Shown here: piece after piece, positions 2,206 through 10,752 of the stretch
Numbering within the stretch: the stretch's first letter is position 1
Layout of the letters: every line of letters starts with the position of its first letter
NCBI GenBank assembly: GCA_011524575.1
Contig: WTKB01000213.1
Coordinates: 1-10,874 of the forward strand
Direction: 5' to 3'
Source: Aquimarina sp.
GTDB taxonomy: Bacteria > Bacteroidota > Bacteroidia > Flavobacteriales > Flavobacteriaceae
Length of the DNA: 10,874 nt
The notes under the pieces: model-generated
The model's database searches: none
Told to the model about the DNA's origin: nothing
The model's input: only the letters and a program-made list of their open reading frames with translations
Program-made: the position numbers and the translations under genes

Positions 2206-2219
2206 CTAATATAATATTC

Positions 2220-2537
2220 TTATAAAGTCTCTAGGTAGCCAGTTATAGTATCTAAAATGGCTTCAAAGGCGTCTTTTTTATCCATGTTTCCTTCGAGTAA
2301 GTCTTGTTCATAGCTATGGGCTACTTCATAACTTTTTTCAAGACTCAGAATACTAATTTTATGTTTGAGTTTGTGTACGCTATCAGCGGCTAAATTATAT
2401 TTTTTAGCATGGTAATTCTCAAAATAGAGCTGCTTCTCCTCAGGAAATTCTTTCTTAATAACAGCGATTAGTTTTTGTTTAAAAGCGTTATCACCACCCG
2501 ATAAGTTATTTATATAATTTTGATTCGGTTGTTCCAT
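2220..2537 (-). CDS. stand-alone Hpt (histidine phosphotransfer) protein
   Basis: This 105-residue all-helical protein is the size of a single Hpt domain. The phospho-acceptor motif HKLKHKIS places the active histidine at His55, followed by the conserved Leu-Lys; the usual small residue after Lys is His59 here. Hpt proteins shuttle phosphate between REC domains and have no catalytic activity of their own. It is the last gene of the four-gene minus-strand operon, and its first 32 bases overlap the 3' end of the kinase gene in another frame, which suggests translational coupling. The next in-frame Met is residue 85, beyond the active His, so the start at 2537 is well supported. The kinase is not a hybrid, so the expected partner is the separate REC protein of the same operon, plus possible REC proteins elsewhere. 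The domain call is strong; the partners are inferred. Confidence 0.85.
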   Translation of the reverse strand: MEQPNQNYINNLSGGDNAFKQKLIAVIKKEFPEEKQLYFENYHAKKYNLAADSVHKLKHKISILSLEKSYEVAHSYEQDLLEGNMDKKDAFEAILDTITGYLETL

Positions 2538-4239
2538 TTGTGATTTTTTTTAGTGTAAAATAAAAGATAGTTCCTATGTTTATTTCAGATTCCAACCATA
2601 TTTTTCCTTGATATAACTCTACTATTTTTTTTACAATGGATAATCCTATACCAGAGGATTTAGGATTGTTATCTAATTTCTCAAAGGTTTCAAAAATTTT
2701 CTTATAATATTTTTCTTCAATTCCTTTCCCGTTATCTTTGATGTAAAATTGCCAATACTCTTTTTGATCTTCTACACCTATTTCTATGGATCCTTGGGTC
2801 TTGTCGTTATATTTTATGGCGTTACCAATTAAATTTTGAAATAGTTGCTGAAGTTTTGTGCGATCTCCTTTAAAAATAGGTAACACATTTTTTAATTCGA
2901 TCTTTATATGTTTAGGTATATAAATGATGGTAAGCAGTTCTTTTACGAGGTGATCTAAGTTAATAGCTATCTTTTCTGAGGTATCTGCCCCAATGCTAGA
3001 GTAATTTAGAATATCTGTGATTAAAAGTTCCATTTTTTCTAAGGTAGTTTCTATAAGTCCAAAGTTTTGAAGACTCCCCTCGCTTAATTGTTCTTTATTG
3101 TCTTCTTTAATAAAGCTGGTTAATGCATAAATACTCCTTAGGGGTGATTTTAAGTCGTGAGATACAATGTGTGCATATTCTTTTAATTCATCATTGCTTC
3201 TTTCAAGTTCTTTGAGTAGCCTTTTATTTTTGTTTTCAGCTTTTTCTCGTGCCCTGATATTAATGGCACTTTTTAGTTGCATAGCTACTAAACTTGCGAT
3301 ATTTTCTATAGTTTTTAATTGCGATTTGGTATAATAATTTTTTTGATCGTGCTCAGAATCTATTAAACCAATCACTTCTCCTTCGTTTAAAATAGGTACT
3401 ACAATTTCTGAAAGTCGCACCTTTCTATTTTTAATATAGTCCTTGTCTAAAGAGGTGTCTGCTACAATCTCAGCAATACCTGTTCGTACGACTCTACCTG
3501 TAATTCCTTTTTCAATTGGAAAGATAGCTTTGTCTATAATTTGTTTTTTTTCATTTAATTTTTGACCAAAGGCAGCAATCTGTTCTATGGTCTGATCCTG
3601 TTTATTGATAATGTAAATTATGCAATGTTCTGTGCCTAGATATTGCGCAATAATACCAGTTAGTTTTGTGGCAATTTGATAGATGTCTATTTTTCCAAGA
3701 ATAGATTTTGCAACTCTATTAATTAAGTTAATAATAAAAGCTTTTTCTCTTTCTTTGGTAATATCTCGAACAATTCCTTGCGCAGCAATAGGTTTTTGAT
3801 TTTTATCATAAACCATACTGGCATTAATGCTCACCCATTTTACTTCTTTCGATTTTGTGTAAATACGTACTTCGAAATTTTTGAAAAATCCTTTAGTTTG
3901 GAGTTTTGAAAAAGAAGCTATTGTATATTTAAAATCTTCTTTAGCAATTAAACGGAGAACGTTTAATTCGTTTTTATTGATGTCATAGCCTAAAAGATGT
4001 ATGGCAGCATCATTAAATTTAAGAATATTTCCTTTAATATCAATTACTACATAAGCATCGATAATATTTTCGAAAACCCCTTGAAGTTGCGAAGATTTTT
4101 CGTCTAGTAGCTGTTCTAACTTTAAAGAGGTTTGATAAAGAACTCTTGATTTATCTTCTAAAATGCGCTCTGCTGCTTTTCTAGCTTCTTTTTCTCTGTG
4201 CAACGCACGTTTTAGCAGCTCAATTTGTTTGTTATCCAT
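2506..4239 (-). CDS. PAS-GAF sensor histidine kinase, H-NOX-associated
   Basis: This 577-residue soluble kinase has no membrane segment. In order: a charged N-terminal coiled coil (about 1-52); a PAS domain (about 55-163, ending GIVRDITKERE); a GAF domain (about 170-325); a coiled linker; a HisKA dimerisation domain with H-box VSHDLKSPLR (phospho-His361); and a HATPase domain with N-box NLIGNAIKY (Asn473), G1 box DNGKGI (502-507), F-box FETF (516-519) and G2 box GIGLS (530-534). All catalytic motifs are intact, and there is no receiver domain. Its start overlaps the H-NOX stop by 8 bases (ATGGATAA) and its end overlaps the Hpt gene by 32. Kinases encoded beside H-NOX are usually inhibited by the NO-bound sensor. 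Here PAS and GAF could add a second input such as redox state, a nucleotide or another ligand. It is functionally comparable to HnoK, but larger. Confidence 0.92.
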   Translation of the reverse strand: MDNKQIELLKRALHREKEARKAAERILEDKSRVLYQTSLKLEQLLDEKSSQLQGVFENIIDAYVVIDIKGNILKFNDAAIHLLGYDINKNELNVLRLIAKEDFKYTIASFSKLQTKGFFKNFEVRIYTKSKEVKWVSINASMVYDKNQKPIAAQGIVRDITKEREKAFIINLINRVAKSILGKIDIYQIATKLTGIIAQYLGTEHCIIYIINKQDQTIEQIAAFGQKLNEKKQIIDKAIFPIEKGITGRVVRTGIAEIVADTSLDKDYIKNRKVRLSEIVVPILNEGEVIGLIDSEHDQKNYYTKSQLKTIENIASLVAMQLKSAINIRAREKAENKNKRLLKELERSNDELKEYAHIVSHDLKSPLRSIYALTSFIKEDNKEQLSEGSLQNFGLIETTLEKMELLITDILNYSSIGADTSEKIAINLDHLVKELLTIIYIPKHIKIELKNVLPIFKGDRTKLQQLFQNLIGNAIKYNDKTQGSIEIGVEDQKEYWQFYIKDNGKGIEEKYYKKIFETFEKLDNNPKSSGIGLSIVKKIVELYQGKIWLESEINIGTIFYFTLKKITNGTTESKLYK

Positions 4240-4777
4240 TAATTTTATTAATGATAAATTTGACTTCGGTGCCGTCGTCTTTAATGTTCTTTAAATCAAT
4301 GGTTGCGGTGCTGTTAAAATGTTCAAAGGTTTTATTCATTAAGCCTAATCCAAAGTGATGCATGGCTCTACTTGATCGATACACCATAATTAGTGAGTCT
4401 TCTGTTTTATCTATGACTTCAAAAGTGGGAAGCTCCGCATCTGGATAAATTTTTCTTACTTCTACATGTATGTGATTTTCTATAGAAGAAATCATTTCTA
4501 TAGGATCGTTATAAGTGGCTAAAAGCCCAGGATAACTTTTTTCGATAGTACTAAAAAAATGTTCACCATAGGTTAAGAGTAAATTGTTTATAGATATTTC
4601 TGTTAGAGCACTCAGGTGTTGTAATAGTTGTAACATCTCAGAAAAACTATAGGTACCTACTGCTGTATAAATACCGCTAGATTCTAAATTAGAATTCGTT
4701 ATAATAGTATCCACCATTTCTAAACCAAATTTATCTTCAACCAATTCTAAAAATTCTGTAAAAACTATACCTTTCAT
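4232..4777 (-). CDS. hnoX: H-NOX (heme-nitric oxide/oxygen binding) sensor protein
   Basis: The 181 residues match a stand-alone bacterial H-NOX domain. The N-terminus MKGIVF and FG at 17-18 are typical. The heme-ligand region reads HIHVEVRK; by alignment His104 is the proximal ligand (His102 is close by). The YxSxR heme-propionate motif is Tyr133, Ser135, Arg137. Pro117, 13 residues after His104, matches the conserved proline that distorts the heme. The distal tyrosine of the O2-binding Thermoanaerobacter protein aligns with Phe142, and two other distal positions with Phe9 and Phe74, so the pocket is apolar and expected to favour NO over O2. The protein is cytoplasmic. The gene starts immediately after the REC stop (TAAATG, no gap) and overlaps the kinase start by 8 bases. 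The family call is very secure; ligand choice is inferred from residues. Confidence 0.95.
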   Translation of the reverse strand: MKGIVFTEFLELVEDKFGLEMVDTIITNSNLESSGIYTAVGTYSFSEMLQLLQHLSALTEISINNLLLTYGEHFFSTIEKSYPGLLATYNDPIEMISSIENHIHVEVRKIYPDAELPTFEVIDKTEDSLIMVYRSSRAMHHFGLGLMNKTFEHFNSTATIDLKNIKDDGTEVKFIINKING

Positions 4778-5191
4778 TTAAACGCTTATTAGTTCATTAA
4801 TACTCCAATATGCTAGTACTTTCTCGATTTTAATAACATAATCCTCATATTTCAAGGGTTTTGTGATGTATCCGCTAACTCCTGTTTTATAACACTCTAA
4901 TAAGTCTTTTTGATGGTTAGATGTCGTTAGAATTATTGTTGGAATATGCATTAATTGCTCGTCGTTTCTTAGGATATTTAAAAATTCAATGCCATTCATC
5001 TTTGTCATATTTAAATCTAATAAAATAATGTCAGGCAAATGCTCTTTTTGTCGTAAAATCGTTAAAGCTTCTTCACCATTATTGGCTTCAATGATTTTAT
5101 GATTTAAGTTCAAGGATGAAATCGTTCTATTCAATTTCATGATTTCAATCATGTCATCTTCTACAAGAAGGATGTTAAGTTTTCGAGTCAT
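4778..5191 (-). CDS. single-domain response regulator (CheY/Rcp1-like REC protein)
   Basis: These 137 residues make up one receiver domain and nothing else. The acidic pocket is Glu11-Asp12-Asp13, the phospho-acceptor is Asp59 in LLDLNM, the switch Thr is Thr89 in ILTTS, and the conserved Lys is Lys111 in TKP. All are intact, so it should be phosphorylatable. There is no DNA-binding, cyclase, EAL or HD-GYP output domain. It must act by protein contact or as a phosphate shuttle to the Hpt protein encoded at the end of the operon. It is the first gene of the minus-strand operon, read from the divergent spacer 5192-5519, and abuts the H-NOX gene with no gap. The HnoD-type regulators known from other H-NOX systems are degenerate; this one keeps its Asp. 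Confidence 0.92.
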   Translation of the reverse strand: MTRKLNILLVEDDMIEIMKLNRTISSLNLNHKIIEANNGEEALTILRQKEHLPDIILLDLNMTKMNGIEFLNILRNDEQLMHIPTIILTTSNHQKDLLECYKTGVSGYITKPLKYEDYVIKIEKVLAYWSINELISV

Positions 5192-5475
5192 TCATTTTTA
5201 TTAATGAGGTTTCTATTAAAAATATTTAAATTTACAAAAAATAACAATTTTATAGTTATAAAATTTGTTTAGAATTAGCAAAGTGTATAGAGTTTTTTGT
5301 AGAGTAATTGATATCTTTGAAGGTTTTAGTTATAGGCCTAAAAAAGAGAGATTTTCTTTTTTAATAGTACATAGATTCCGTCTAAAACAGGTATAATTAT
5401 GTCTATTAACAATTTGCATTTATAATTTTATGTAAATTATTTGTCTTAATCGTATTTTTTTTGGAATTTAATACG

Positions 5476-5483
5476 TAATTTTG
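5476..5483 (+). promoter_or_regulatory. candidate flavobacterial -7 promoter element for atpB
   Basis: TAATTTTG matches the Bacteroidota housekeeping -7 consensus TAnnTTTG. It lies 36 bases before the atpB start codon, giving a leader of roughly 30 bases. The expected -33 TTG at a 17-23 base spacing is absent; the nearest TTG, at 5461-5463, is only 12 bases upstream. The call therefore rests on the -7 match and position. Confidence 0.4.
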
Positions 5484-5493
5484 CAGCCAATTT

Positions 5494-5503
5494 ATTGATC
5501 AAT
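5494..5503. promoter_or_regulatory. 10-bp perfect palindrome in the atpB leader
   Basis: ATTGATCAAT is a perfect palindrome lying between the candidate -7 element and the atpB start. It could be a repressor site or have no function. In AT-rich DNA such palindromes arise by chance, so confidence in a role is low. Confidence 0.2.
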
Positions 5504-5519
5504 CTCATAGTTCACTGAT

Positions 5520-6995: not shown

Positions 6996-7493
6996 ATGAA
7001 CTTGATTCACGATTTTTCACCTGGTCTTTTTGTCATTCAGGCAGTCATTCTTTTAGTTTTAATTCTATTGATGCGTAAATTTGCGTGGAAGCCTATTTTA
7101 GATAGTTTACAAAACCGTGAAGAAGGTATTCAATCGGCTTTGGATGCTGCAGAAAACGCAAAGAAAGAACTTCAAAATCTTCAAGCAGATAATGAGCGTG
7201 TATTAAAACTAGCTAGGGAAGAAAAAGAAGCACTTCTTAAAGAAGCTCGTGAGTTAAAAGCAGTTATTTTAGCTGATGCAAAATCTGAGGCGGAAAAAGA
7301 ATCTGAAAAAATAATAAAGCAAGCTCAAGAAACGATTGTTTCTGAGAAAAGAGCTGCACTTGCAGATTTAAAAAATCAAGTAGCGGGTGTTTCTTTGCAA
7401 ATTGCAGAGGAGTTAGTAAAAAGTGAGCTTACCAATACAGGAAAGCAACAAGAACTTATTGCTGCACTTCTTAAAGAGAATTCATTAAACTAA
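6996..7493 (+). CDS. atpF: ATP synthase F0 subunit b (peripheral stalk)
   Basis: This 165-residue protein (E. coli 156) has one N-terminal membrane helix (about 10-27, LFVIQAVILLVLILLM), followed by the conserved RKFAWKPILDSL segment at 27-38. A long charged coiled coil (about 40-150), rich in Ala, Lys and Glu, follows. Two copies, or a heterodimer, form the stator linking subunit a to delta and alpha. Only one b gene is present, so a homodimer is expected. It follows the hairpin after atpE by 36 bases and is 13 bases from atpH, so atpF and atpH are closely coupled. The start at 6996 is the only Met before the membrane helix. Confidence 0.96.
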   Translation: MNLIHDFSPGLFVIQAVILLVLILLMRKFAWKPILDSLQNREEGIQSALDAAENAKKELQNLQADNERVLKLAREEKEALLKEARELKAVILADAKSEAEKESEKIIKQAQETIVSEKRAALADLKNQVAGVSLQIAEELVKSELTNTGKQQELIAALLKENSLN

Positions 7494-7506
7494 AAAATCC
7501 TTTTTT

Positions 7507-8058
7507 ATGAGCAGAGCTGCCATAAGATATGCGAGTGCTATTTTGAGTCTTGCCAAAGACAAAAGTGTCGAAGCTGATGTTTTTAATGATATGCTAAATA
7601 TTTCTCAGACTTTTTCAAAAAGTGAGGAGTTGAACGAAGTACTTACTAATTCTGTTGTTTCTTCGGAGTCTAAATTAGCTTTGTTAAAATCAATATTCTC
7701 GAACTGTAACGCTCAAACCTTAGATGTTTTTAAACTACTAGATGAGAACAATCGTTTGCCTATCTTAGGACAGGTAGCTTCTTCTTTTGTAGCTTTATAT
7801 AAACAAGAAAAAGGAATTATTGAAGCTTCAGTAATAACGGCTATAGCTTTGACTCCTGAACTAGAGCAAGCAGTACTTAAAAAAGCTCAAGAGATCTCAG
7901 GTGCTACATCATCATCTCAAATTCAAATTAAAAACACAGTTAATCCAGATATTTTAGGTGGATTTATTCTAAGAGTGGGTGATGTTGAATTAGATTCAAG
8001 TATTAGTAACAAGATTCAAGAGATGAAGCGTACACTTTTAGATGCTTCTTTAAATTAA
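7507..8058 (+). CDS. atpH: ATP synthase F1 subunit delta (stator cap)
   Basis: This 183-residue protein (E. coli 177) begins MSRAAIRYASAILSLA, typical of the helical N-terminal domain of delta/OSCP that caps the alpha subunits. It ends with the family's C-terminal pattern, ILGGFILRVGDVELDSSI then a basic helix (KIQEMKRTLL), which meets subunit b. It is cytoplasmic and joins the peripheral stalk to the F1 head. It is separated from atpF by 13 bases and from atpA by 137 bases. Sequence outside the two ends is variable, as usual for delta. Confidence 0.95.
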   Translation: MSRAAIRYASAILSLAKDKSVEADVFNDMLNISQTFSKSEELNEVLTNSVVSSESKLALLKSIFSNCNAQTLDVFKLLDENNRLPILGQVASSFVALYKQEKGIIEASVITAIALTPELEQAVLKKAQEISGATSSSQIQIKNTVNPDILGGFILRVGDVELDSSISNKIQEMKRTLLDASLN

Positions 8059-9891: not shown

Positions 9892-10752
9892 ATGGCAAAT
9901 TTAAAAGAATTAAGAAGTAGGATTAAATCGGTGTCTTCGACTATGCAGATTACTAGTGCCATGAAAATGGTATCTGCATCGAAACTGAGTAAAGCTCAAG
10001 ACGCGATTCAATCTATGCGTCCCTATTCTGAAAAGCTTACAGAGCTTTTAGGTGCCTTAAATGCTTCTGTAGGAGCTAATGTTTCGAATAGTCTTACCAA
10101 GCAACGAGAAATTAATAAAGTGCTGGTAGTTTCTATTTCTTCAAATAGAGGATTAGCGGGTGCTTTTAACTCTAATATTGTTAAGGCTTCTAAGAAACTT
10201 GTTTCTGAGGAATTAGCTGATAAACAAGTAGATTTTTTTACTATTGGTAAGAAAGCAAATGATATTCTATCTAAAGAATTTTCTATTTTTGAAAATAATG
10301 TTAAGATTTTTGATGATCTTGTTTTCGATAAGGCTTCTGATATTACCGAGAGATTAATGGATTTATATACTTCAGAAACTTATGATCAAATTCTTCTTGT
10401 GTATAATCAGTTTAAAAATGCAGCAACACAAGTTGTTGTGACAGAACAATTATTGCCTATTCAGTCTAGTGAAGTGGATTCGCAAGCAGATACCGATTAT
10501 ATCTTTGAACCTTCTAAGGTGCAGATTATAGAGGATCTTTTACCAAAATCTTTAAAAGTTCAGTTTTATAAAGCATTAAGAGATTCTGTAGCTTCAGAAC
10601 ATGGTGCTCGTATGACTGCAATGCATAAAGCTACTGATAATGCCACTCAATTAAGAGATGCATTAAAGCTTTCTTATAATAAAGCACGTCAAGCAGCAAT
10701 TACAAATGAAATCTTAGAAATTGTTGGTGGTGCTGAGGCACTTAACGCATAA
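9892..10752 (+). CDS. atpG: ATP synthase F1 subunit gamma (central shaft)
   Basis: This 286-residue protein (E. coli 287) forms the rotating shaft inside the alpha3beta3 head. Both ends show the conserved coiled-coil helices: N-terminal NLKELRSRIKSVSSTMQIT with AMKMVSASKL, and C-terminal MTAMHKATDNA followed by LSYNKARQAAITNEILEIV. The middle Rossmann-like region includes SSNRGLAGAFN at about 83-93, also conserved. The start codon lies in CCATGG at 9891-9896. It is the last atp gene here; no atpD or atpC start follows in the remaining 122 bases. It is flanked by two copies of the same repeat. Confidence 0.97.
   Translation: MANLKELRSRIKSVSSTMQITSAMKMVSASKLSKAQDAIQSMRPYSEKLTELLGALNASVGANVSNSLTKQREINKVLVVSISSNRGLAGAFNSNIVKASKKLVSEELADKQVDFFTIGKKANDILSKEFSIFENNVKIFDDLVFDKASDITERLMDLYTSETYDQILLVYNQFKNAATQVVVTEQLLPIQSSEVDSQADTDYIFEPSKVQIIEDLLPKSLKVQFYKALRDSVASEHGARMTAMHKATDNATQLRDALKLSYNKARQAAITNEILEIVGGAEALNA

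Follow-up and report, generated by a model that had tools for sequence, protein, structure and literature searches.

A probably acquired and reduced copy of a conserved flavobacterial nitric oxide phosphorelay operon in Aquimarina sp.

Phosphorelays that respond to nitric oxide (NO) have been worked out mainly in Proteobacteria. Here we describe a putative one from the Flavobacteriaceae, encoded on a 10,874-nucleotide contig of Aquimarina sp. (WTKB01000213.1, assembly GCA_011524575.1; this whole stretch is called the window), which carries, in this order and on one strand, genes for a stand-alone receiver (REC), an H-NOX protein, a PAS-GAF histidine kinase and a stand-alone histidine phosphotransfer protein (Hpt) (Table 1). 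In the Vibrio H-NOX/HqsK/LuxU/LuxO system, according to the available part of its description, an H-NOX-controlled kinase likewise feeds His-Asp-His transfer into a stand-alone Hpt; however, HqsK carries its receiver as part of a hybrid kinase, whereas the flavobacterial receiver is separate and encoded first, the flavobacterial Hpt lies inside the operon, and the usual output is a LytTR regulator and not the sigma-54 regulator LuxO (PMC6759604). V. cholerae NosP/VpsS, as far as the accessible text covers it, also places a FIST-type NO sensor beside a kinase without a sensor domain of its own that feeds an Hpt (PMC6769237, PMC8738867), although in Flavobacteriaceae the NosP-like and H-NOX arms share one operon and one Hpt, and the window lacks the NosP arm. 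In Legionella hnox2, H-NOX and kinase are found beside a stand-alone receiver, and the portion of the source at hand mentions neither Hpt nor LytTR (PMC8738867). An earlier interpretation of this DNA from its letters alone (the sequence-only reading) had set it apart from well-studied systems built on hybrid kinases or on regulators with output domains, which is partly right, the exception being Legionella hnox2 with its neighbouring kinase and lone CheY-like regulator, as that same partial source has it (PMC8738867).

No description of the operon presented below was found in the titles and abstracts of the literature searched, a scope outside which subscription papers fall, including the work on Kordia algicida H-NOX. 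The K. algicida protein is an orthologue of the window H-NOX, encoded in a host that has a seven-gene operon in place of the four genes of the window; residues 1-178 of the window protein match PDB entries 6bde/6bdd, which we take to be K. algicida H-NOX, at 2e-92.

Comparison with relatives indicates that the module is real and conserved, and that the sequence-only reading, partly supported in this way, took a reduced copy for the whole. We consider it rather probable, on the evidence of the sequences, that these genes reached the host by horizontal transfer and represent a reduced version of an NO phosphorelay operon that is conserved in flavobacteria; the locus does not encode the final acceptor. 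The complete system, as predicted from its genes, would relay NO signals through separate proteins: as many as three sensor-kinase pairs share one Hpt, and the output is a LytTR regulator, for which there is a strongly conserved candidate operator.

The four open frames of the window are free of stops and keep all catalytic residues. REC and H-NOX abut (gap 0), H-NOX and kinase overlap by 8 bases (4232-4239) and kinase and Hpt by 32 bases (2506-2537), in exact agreement with the coordinates given earlier. The H-NOX protein scores 136 bits against HNOB (cut-off 25.5) and has the YxSxR motif at residues 133-137 and, presumably as haem ligand, a residue that we assign from its spacing to the YP motif, His104; these positions are conserved in the relatives introduced below (His104 in 104/106, Tyr133 and Ser135 in 105/106 each, Arg137 in 99/106). 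The H-box and the ATPase part of the adjoining kinase are both intact, and no REC domain was found in it with Pfam, the receiver being a separate gene.

Two sets of relatives were used. The named set holds the best 80 of 315 confirmed H-NOX loci, chosen by closeness to the window H-NOX; a family-wide sample was taken because it avoids choosing relatives by similarity, and for it PF07700 was searched in 299 genomes, 105 of which matched, at 109 places. From these, 107 were fetched (left out were the window and a sub-cut-off, stop-bearing match of genome G127), and the loss of locus L194, whose H-NOX was dropped by the open-reading-frame filter, leaves 106 loci. Some genomes occur in both sets, and only exact duplicate upstream regions were removed.

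REC lies directly upstream of H-NOX in 100/106 family-sample loci and in 79/80 named loci, the remaining one being cut by the contig end; this order is far beyond chance and not confined to one strain. Downstream, the strict chains are kinase-NosP-kinase-Hpt-LytTR (48 loci), kinase-Hpt-LytTR (38) and kinase-kinase-Hpt-LytTR (1), which sum to 87 of 106; Hpt and LytTR also occur in three further loci, where a gap is wider or an additional frame is present. In all, we collected Hpt from 94, a LytTR response regulator from 90, a FIST/NosP-like protein from 56 and a second kinase (HK2, as distinct from HK1 next to H-NOX) from 55 sampled loci. Hpt and LytTR follow in 78/80 named loci, and 61 of these 78 also carry a NosP-like gene; the exceptions are L013, where the contig ends after the NosP-like gene, and L066. 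Both genes are also present in 11/11 same-genus loci seen at length. Pfam identified FIST and FIST_C in the gene between the kinases and Response_reg and LytTR in the last gene of example loci, and FIST_N with FIST_C in the NosP-like proteins of L072 and L003; three relatives stayed below the NCBIfam NosP cut-off of 450 bits (48.2, 59.7 and 63.9), and we therefore name these proteins NosP-like. The usual operon, judged from its gene content, is REC, H-NOX, HK1, [NosP-like, HK2], Hpt and LytTR, a predicted His-Asp-His-Asp chain in separate proteins; K. algicida OT-1 (L072) has this seven-gene form, and its H-NOX shares 80% identity with the window protein. Because median gene spacings are only -4 to +9 bases, co-transcription is a fair expectation, in line with the NO phosphorelay of separate, co-transcribed proteins proposed from the sequence. 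The statement that there is no output domain is true of the window and does not hold as a trait of the system: since LytTR follows Hpt in 90/106 and 78/80 loci, the relay would normally end in a DNA-binding regulator of its own.

Several variants of the operon were observed. In the same-genus loci L223, L225 and L226, HK1 and Hpt are separated by two NosP-kinase cassettes, so that one Hpt has up to three sensor-kinase pairs before it; L190 (G182) has a tandem duplicate of the Hpt-LytTR pair, its two LytTR proteins showing 69% and 66% identity; and L145 (G100), with a 132-residue H-NOX frame, an in-frame stop in the genome match and a 140-residue NosP-like fragment, is apparently a broken operon.

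A survey of 395 genomes of the phylum, 27 of them with H-NOX, gave 30 places, of which 20 were fetched (13 outside the family and 7 inside). Outside the family the full seven-gene operon was present in 1/13 places (L258); in L256, L257, L261 and L262 the gene after H-NOX encodes a long kinase that includes a receiver, three places have a plain kinase, and five have none by the models used. Hpt and LytTR were found at 5/7 of the further in-family places. Since only one out-of-family place has the full operon, the split arrangement seems to be mainly, not strictly, a trait of Flavobacteriaceae. In L116 (G303), a NosP-like gene, H-NOX and a 1156-residue kinase with a receiver adjoin, which makes this locus a fused counterpart that unites both NO sensors.

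The phospho-sites named from the window alone (His361 of the kinase, Asp59 of REC and His55 of Hpt) are indeed intact there, and they are invariant in relatives: REC Asp59 in 100/100, the HK1 histidine in 103/103, the HK2 histidine in 55/55, Hpt His55 in 94/94 and LytTR Asp53 in 90/90. In REC, Asp12 and Lys111 are likewise kept in 100/100 and Thr89 in 96/100. Within one locus, the DHp domains of HK1 and HK2 are 49.2% identical (n=55), whereas their identity to five non-operon kinases is 25.6%; the two also have helix-face residues between H+4 and H+15 in common. Such likeness fits one shared partner.

The Hpt of the window scores 16.3 bits with Pfam (PF01627), below the gathering cut-off of 24.6. 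The assignment holds because the K. algicida homologue (L072) passes at 30.7 bits, because His55 is invariant among the homologues, which were collected at the matching place in the sampled loci, and because of the predicted fold: the AlphaFold2 model (mean predicted local distance difference test score 94.4) has Hpt domains as its top PDB matches (template modelling scores of 0.76-0.79 to 3myf and 7c1i, with Foldseek E-values all >0.001), so that the 105-residue protein is predicted to adopt the Hpt helical-bundle fold. Glycine is usual at position H+4 of Hpt proteins (the HxxKG motif). In the window the His and Lys of this motif are kept and Gly is replaced by His, as in 92/94 relatives (His59), the other two having Asn; this is a family trait, and Lys58 is kept in 91/94.

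We also noticed a conserved direct repeat upstream of REC. Of 165 distinct regions, among them that of the window, 98 contain short words like CATTCGTC (0.1 expected), and the core TC[GT]ACA is found twice at exactly 21 bases in 57, with 0 in 20 shuffled sets. A matrix built from these 57 regions (training range 29.7-58.1 bits) detects a box above 17 bits in 124/165 regions, all in forward and 0/165 in reverse orientation, about 113 bases ahead of the REC start. The bacteroidetal -7 element has the form TAnnTTTG; this word follows the box within 70 bases in 21/124 regions, at an offset of 41-42 in 19 of the 21. The loci hold 200 sites that score above 17 bits, 153 of them upstream of REC; no box above 10 bits was found upstream of NosP, Hpt, LytTR or kinase genes (0 of 149, 170, 165 and 300, respectively), and boxes precede a secreted protein gene in 20/39, a barrel gene in 7/24 and other genes in 58/953 cases, some of which share the REC region. 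Genome-wide, the strict pattern occurs in 14/149 genomes, once in each and always 486-521 bp before the H-NOX domain, with 0 for the reversed-pattern control; it is specific and insensitive, 56 of the 149 genomes carrying H-NOX by hand count, so its blank in the genome of the window says little. LytTR regulators of other bacteria bind direct repeats spaced about two helical turns, and we infer that LytTR may bind the box, a candidate operator. A box above 10 bits is present in 73/90 loci with LytTR versus 5/16 without a local LytTR (Fisher p 1.4e-4, kinship uncorrected).

The window departs from the usual operon in three respects, having neither LytTR nor a NosP arm and a fused kinase, and for this reason appears to be a reduced copy and not the archetype. 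No box was found in it, the best score anywhere being -14.5 bits where random sequence reaches -4.8; in fact, the box is absent from all five loci that have no LytTR after Hpt within assembled sequence (the window, L066, L144, L150 and L166). In the host assembly (2.09 Mb, 89% complete), no NosP-like protein was found with a 377-residue query at a threshold of 0.01, in the window or elsewhere. LytTR is absent from the contig, and the closest protein in the assembly (contig C77) is 36% identical; in nine comparison genomes the orthologue shows 60-77% and paralogues up to 43%, so this protein lies within the paralogue range and is not orthologue-like. That LytTR has merely moved is shown for four relatives and not for the window. 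Seven REC domains are assembled in the host, one in the window and six elsewhere, on contigs C77, C265, C269, C138, C36 and C106. The host also encodes a second stand-alone Hpt-like protein (L290, 1477-1818; G000:C66).

The kinase of the window is a chimera. In comparison with nine relatives in which both kinases occur, the DHp part resembles HK1 and the ATPase part HK2; at most 2/2000 shuffles equalled the breakpoint fit, and the HK1-minus-HK2 profile score of the window kinase is +42.0 bits in the DHp half and -22.5 in the ATPase half. By 30-residue segments, identity to HK1 of L154 is 87, 67, 67, 53 then 67, 57, 60, 73%, and to HK2 of L154 70, 27, 37, 48 then 83, 80, 90, 71%; HK1 of L154 and L133 ends at TLKK, unlike the C-terminal tail in the window (Table 1). 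The simplest reading is a single in-frame recombination by which HK1 lost its end, HK2 lost its start and the NosP-like gene was deleted; the chimera thus suggests that the NosP arm disappeared through recombination. An ancestral absence of NosP in the window is rejected by the same chimera. None of the 39 NosP-less sampled kinases (6 without a score) combines an HK1-type DHp with an HK2-type ATPase part, and five of the 39 have an HK2-type DHp. L066, from a metagenome-assembled genome of an uncultured Ulvibacter, resembles the window in its four-gene order, in LytTR not adjoining Hpt and in the lack of a box (-15.4 bits). However, its kinase is longer (704 residues), with an HK1 N-terminal motif and an HK2-type core (-24.9, -25.9), its breakpoint lies earlier, before the DHp domain, and its downstream genes differ.

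Trees of the operon and of the ATP synthase genes on the same contig conflict, which makes horizontal acquisition of the operon likely as judged from these sequences: in the operon tree the window joins G219 and G142 (98/94), and in the ATP synthase tree it is placed, on a long branch, with G041 of the same genus and G151. Approximately unbiased tests reject the exchanged placements (p 9.6e-6; 2.8e-85 and 1.6e-7). The nearest kin of the operon, G219, G142 and G119 (loci L154, L131 and L133), all have the seven-gene form, and the window H-NOX shares 72-75% identity with its best counterparts in the same genus and up to 87% with those of other genera. Over 19 usable genomes (20 regions were fetched, one being a wrong stretch), mean identity to relatives is 69.8, 71.8 and 55.2% for window REC, H-NOX and Hpt versus 70.9, 67.7 and 52.7% among the relatives, and 66.8, 42.9 and 55.9% for AtpG, AtpH and AtpF versus 79.3, 57.5 and 66.0%. 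AtpF, AtpH and AtpG of the window (6996-8058, 9892-10752) differ to an unusual degree from their counterparts throughout the family, which points to a fast-evolving, small-genome lineage.

From the anatomy of the proteins, we propose that NO bound to H-NOX, and to the NosP-like protein where present, would set the autokinase/phosphatase balance of two related kinases sharing the separate REC, and that phosphate would pass from REC to Hpt and on to LytTR, which would bind the tandem repeat of 21-bp period upstream of REC, thereby autoregulating the operon, and would probably also control genes for surface proteins and polysaccharides. In the window, the two kinase genes may have recombined, fusing the HK1 sensor and DHp to the HK2 ATPase part and removing the NosP-like gene; with the LytTR gene and the box also gone, an H-NOX-controlled His-Asp-His chain would be left, in which NO-bound H-NOX may set phosphate entry into REC and then Hpt, with the output rewired, unassembled or lost. 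A wider and more tentative proposal, somewhat short of an even chance in our estimation, is that H-NOX and one or two NosP-like proteins, haem NO sensors of two unrelated types that each have a kinase of their own, compete for one REC, one HxxKH Hpt and one autoregulating LytTR governing secreted surface protein and exopolysaccharide genes, and that the operon is a transferable module that collapses by kinase recombination into output-less, re-plugged versions such as that of the window. If these proposals are true, a common marine family has an NO relay in which every step falls to a separate protein of a single operon, and two NO sensors of different fold share one Hpt; seven small soluble proteins would then make signal integration testable, with the predicted 21-bp direct repeat as an immediate DNA readout. 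The window and L066 would be natural deletion variants, H-NOX relays without output, in which one can ask whether a fused kinase keeps H-NOX control.

A number of observations weigh against the reading of an acquired, reduced copy and its mechanism. HK1 and HK2 of different loci are as alike in DHp as those of one locus (49.2% in both cases), so the likeness is no proof of a shared partner. The box model was trained partly on loci then scored, 17/90 LytTR-bearing loci are at or below 10 bits, and 5/16 loci without a local LytTR are above. Four genomes (G277, G062, G223 and G229) hold a LytTR with 60-67% identity away from the operon, making an output in trans possible in principle, and since three of these (G277, G062 and G223) also lack the box, box loss does not prove LytTR loss; moreover, with the host assembly 89% complete, a LytTR or NosP gene may lie in the missing part. 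The groups compared in the tree tests were defined once the trees were known, and the branch of the window in the ATP synthase tree is long. No foreign signal was found in base composition (guanine plus cytosine content 30.7 vs 34.3%, no composition break; other contigs 28.8-29.6%). REC of the window is accelerated (ratio 1.8-3.1), about like the ATP synthase genes, which speaks against a simple slow, recently arrived operon. The path of deletion is also uncertain, because the nearest kin (L131, L133 and L154) have no barrel gene right after LytTR.

The sequence-only reading held the four proteins to be a complete system whose Hpt feeds regulators encoded elsewhere. The four genes are intact with their phospho-sites kept, the six other assembled REC domains include the LytTR regulator on C77, and an output in trans is real in the four relatives with LytTR off the operon; we nevertheless regard this alternative as rather unlikely, given that the archetype has its own LytTR beside Hpt, that the C77 protein is paralogue-like, and that the regulator on contig C265 adjoins its own kinase. 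The shared phosphate pool that it postulated is possible for the window strain only and, with six other REC domains, would be small. An operon left functionless by the loss of LytTR and box, a decaying remnant, would agree with the loss of output, box and second sensor arm, with Phe at H+15 of the kinase, where 99/102 HK1 have Trp, and with the accelerated REC. This we hold to be unlikely, as the four frames are without stops, all catalytic residues are kept, and H-NOX, Hpt and kinase core, with rate ratios of 0.8-1.7, are little faster than their kin.

Equally improbable in our judgement is that the lone REC does not relay phosphate but serves as a CheY-like output or as a phosphate sink, LytTR (or Hpt) being reached by the kinases along another route. 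Lone CheY-like receivers do occur beside H-NOX kinases in Legionella, as the accessible part of that source describes (PMC8738867), and REC is the first gene, kept in 100/106 loci though Hpt is in 94. However, Hpt proteins normally depend on a REC as phosphate donor (in the available part of that report, LuxU of V. parahaemolyticus could not accept phosphate directly from the HqsK kinase domain; PMC6759604), and besides LytTR this REC is the only receiver in the operon. Finally, the disagreement of the trees and the higher identity of H-NOX to copies of other genera could also arise from an assembly or binning artefact joining another organism's operon to the ATP synthase genes. This explanation is very unlikely, since composition does not break along the contig and contig C265 is equally distant from kin (64%), so that the whole genome is divergent; misbinning of the contig is rejected, its ATP synthase genes grouping with same-genus G041, which places that part at home.

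Table 1. Features of the window discussed in the text
Feature	Coordinates	Strand	Basis or remark
REC, stand-alone receiver, 137 residues	4778-5191	minus	Response_reg 2.8e-22 (Pfam)
REC phospho-acceptor Asp59	5015-5017	minus	aligned relatives
H-NOX, 181 residues, predicted haem-based NO sensor	4232-4777	minus	HNOB 1.1e-39 (Pfam)
H-NOX His104, likely proximal	4466-4468	minus	
PAS-GAF histidine kinase, 577 residues	2506-4239	minus	PAS, GAF, HisKA, HATPase_c (Pfam)
Kinase phospho-site His361	3157-3159	minus	
HK1/HK2 breakpoint range, residues 438-472	2824-2928	minus	best breaks against nine two-kinase relatives
Kinase C-terminal tail with NGTT	2509-2544	minus	like HK2, not HK1, of L154 and L133
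Hpt, stand-alone, 105 residues	2220-2537	minus	
Hpt phospho-site His55	2373-2375	minus	
Gap from Hpt to convergent barrel gene, 14 bases	2206-2219		LytTR position in relatives; LytTR absent in the window
Intergenic region from REC to atpB	5192-5519		without the direct-repeat box of relatives
TPR/predicted outer-membrane barrel gene, 682 residues	157-2205	plus	TPR matches; convergent to the operon

The genes adjoining the operon, together with the box sites, suggest surface or matrix genes as possible targets of LytTR. The predicted barrel protein of the window has a PgaA-like TPR stretch (46.6 bits, far under the cut-off of 366.65). Homologues of its gene occur in 32/106 sampled loci, directly convergent after LytTR in 13/87, and in L144, L150 and L166 the gene comes directly after Hpt, as in the window; the barrel comparison covered 5 relatives only. 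Of the 32 loci, 17 have a flippase-like gene and 11 a glycosyltransferase-like gene (Pfam on examples). Single box sites precede STAS, Wzz-like and UDP-sugar dehydrogenase genes, and two box-associated secreted proteins carry DUF6923 and a type IX secretion system sorting domain. Large secreted proteins of this DUF6923 kind are encoded after LytTR in some loci (e.g. L064:9786-12374 and L142:9937-12528).

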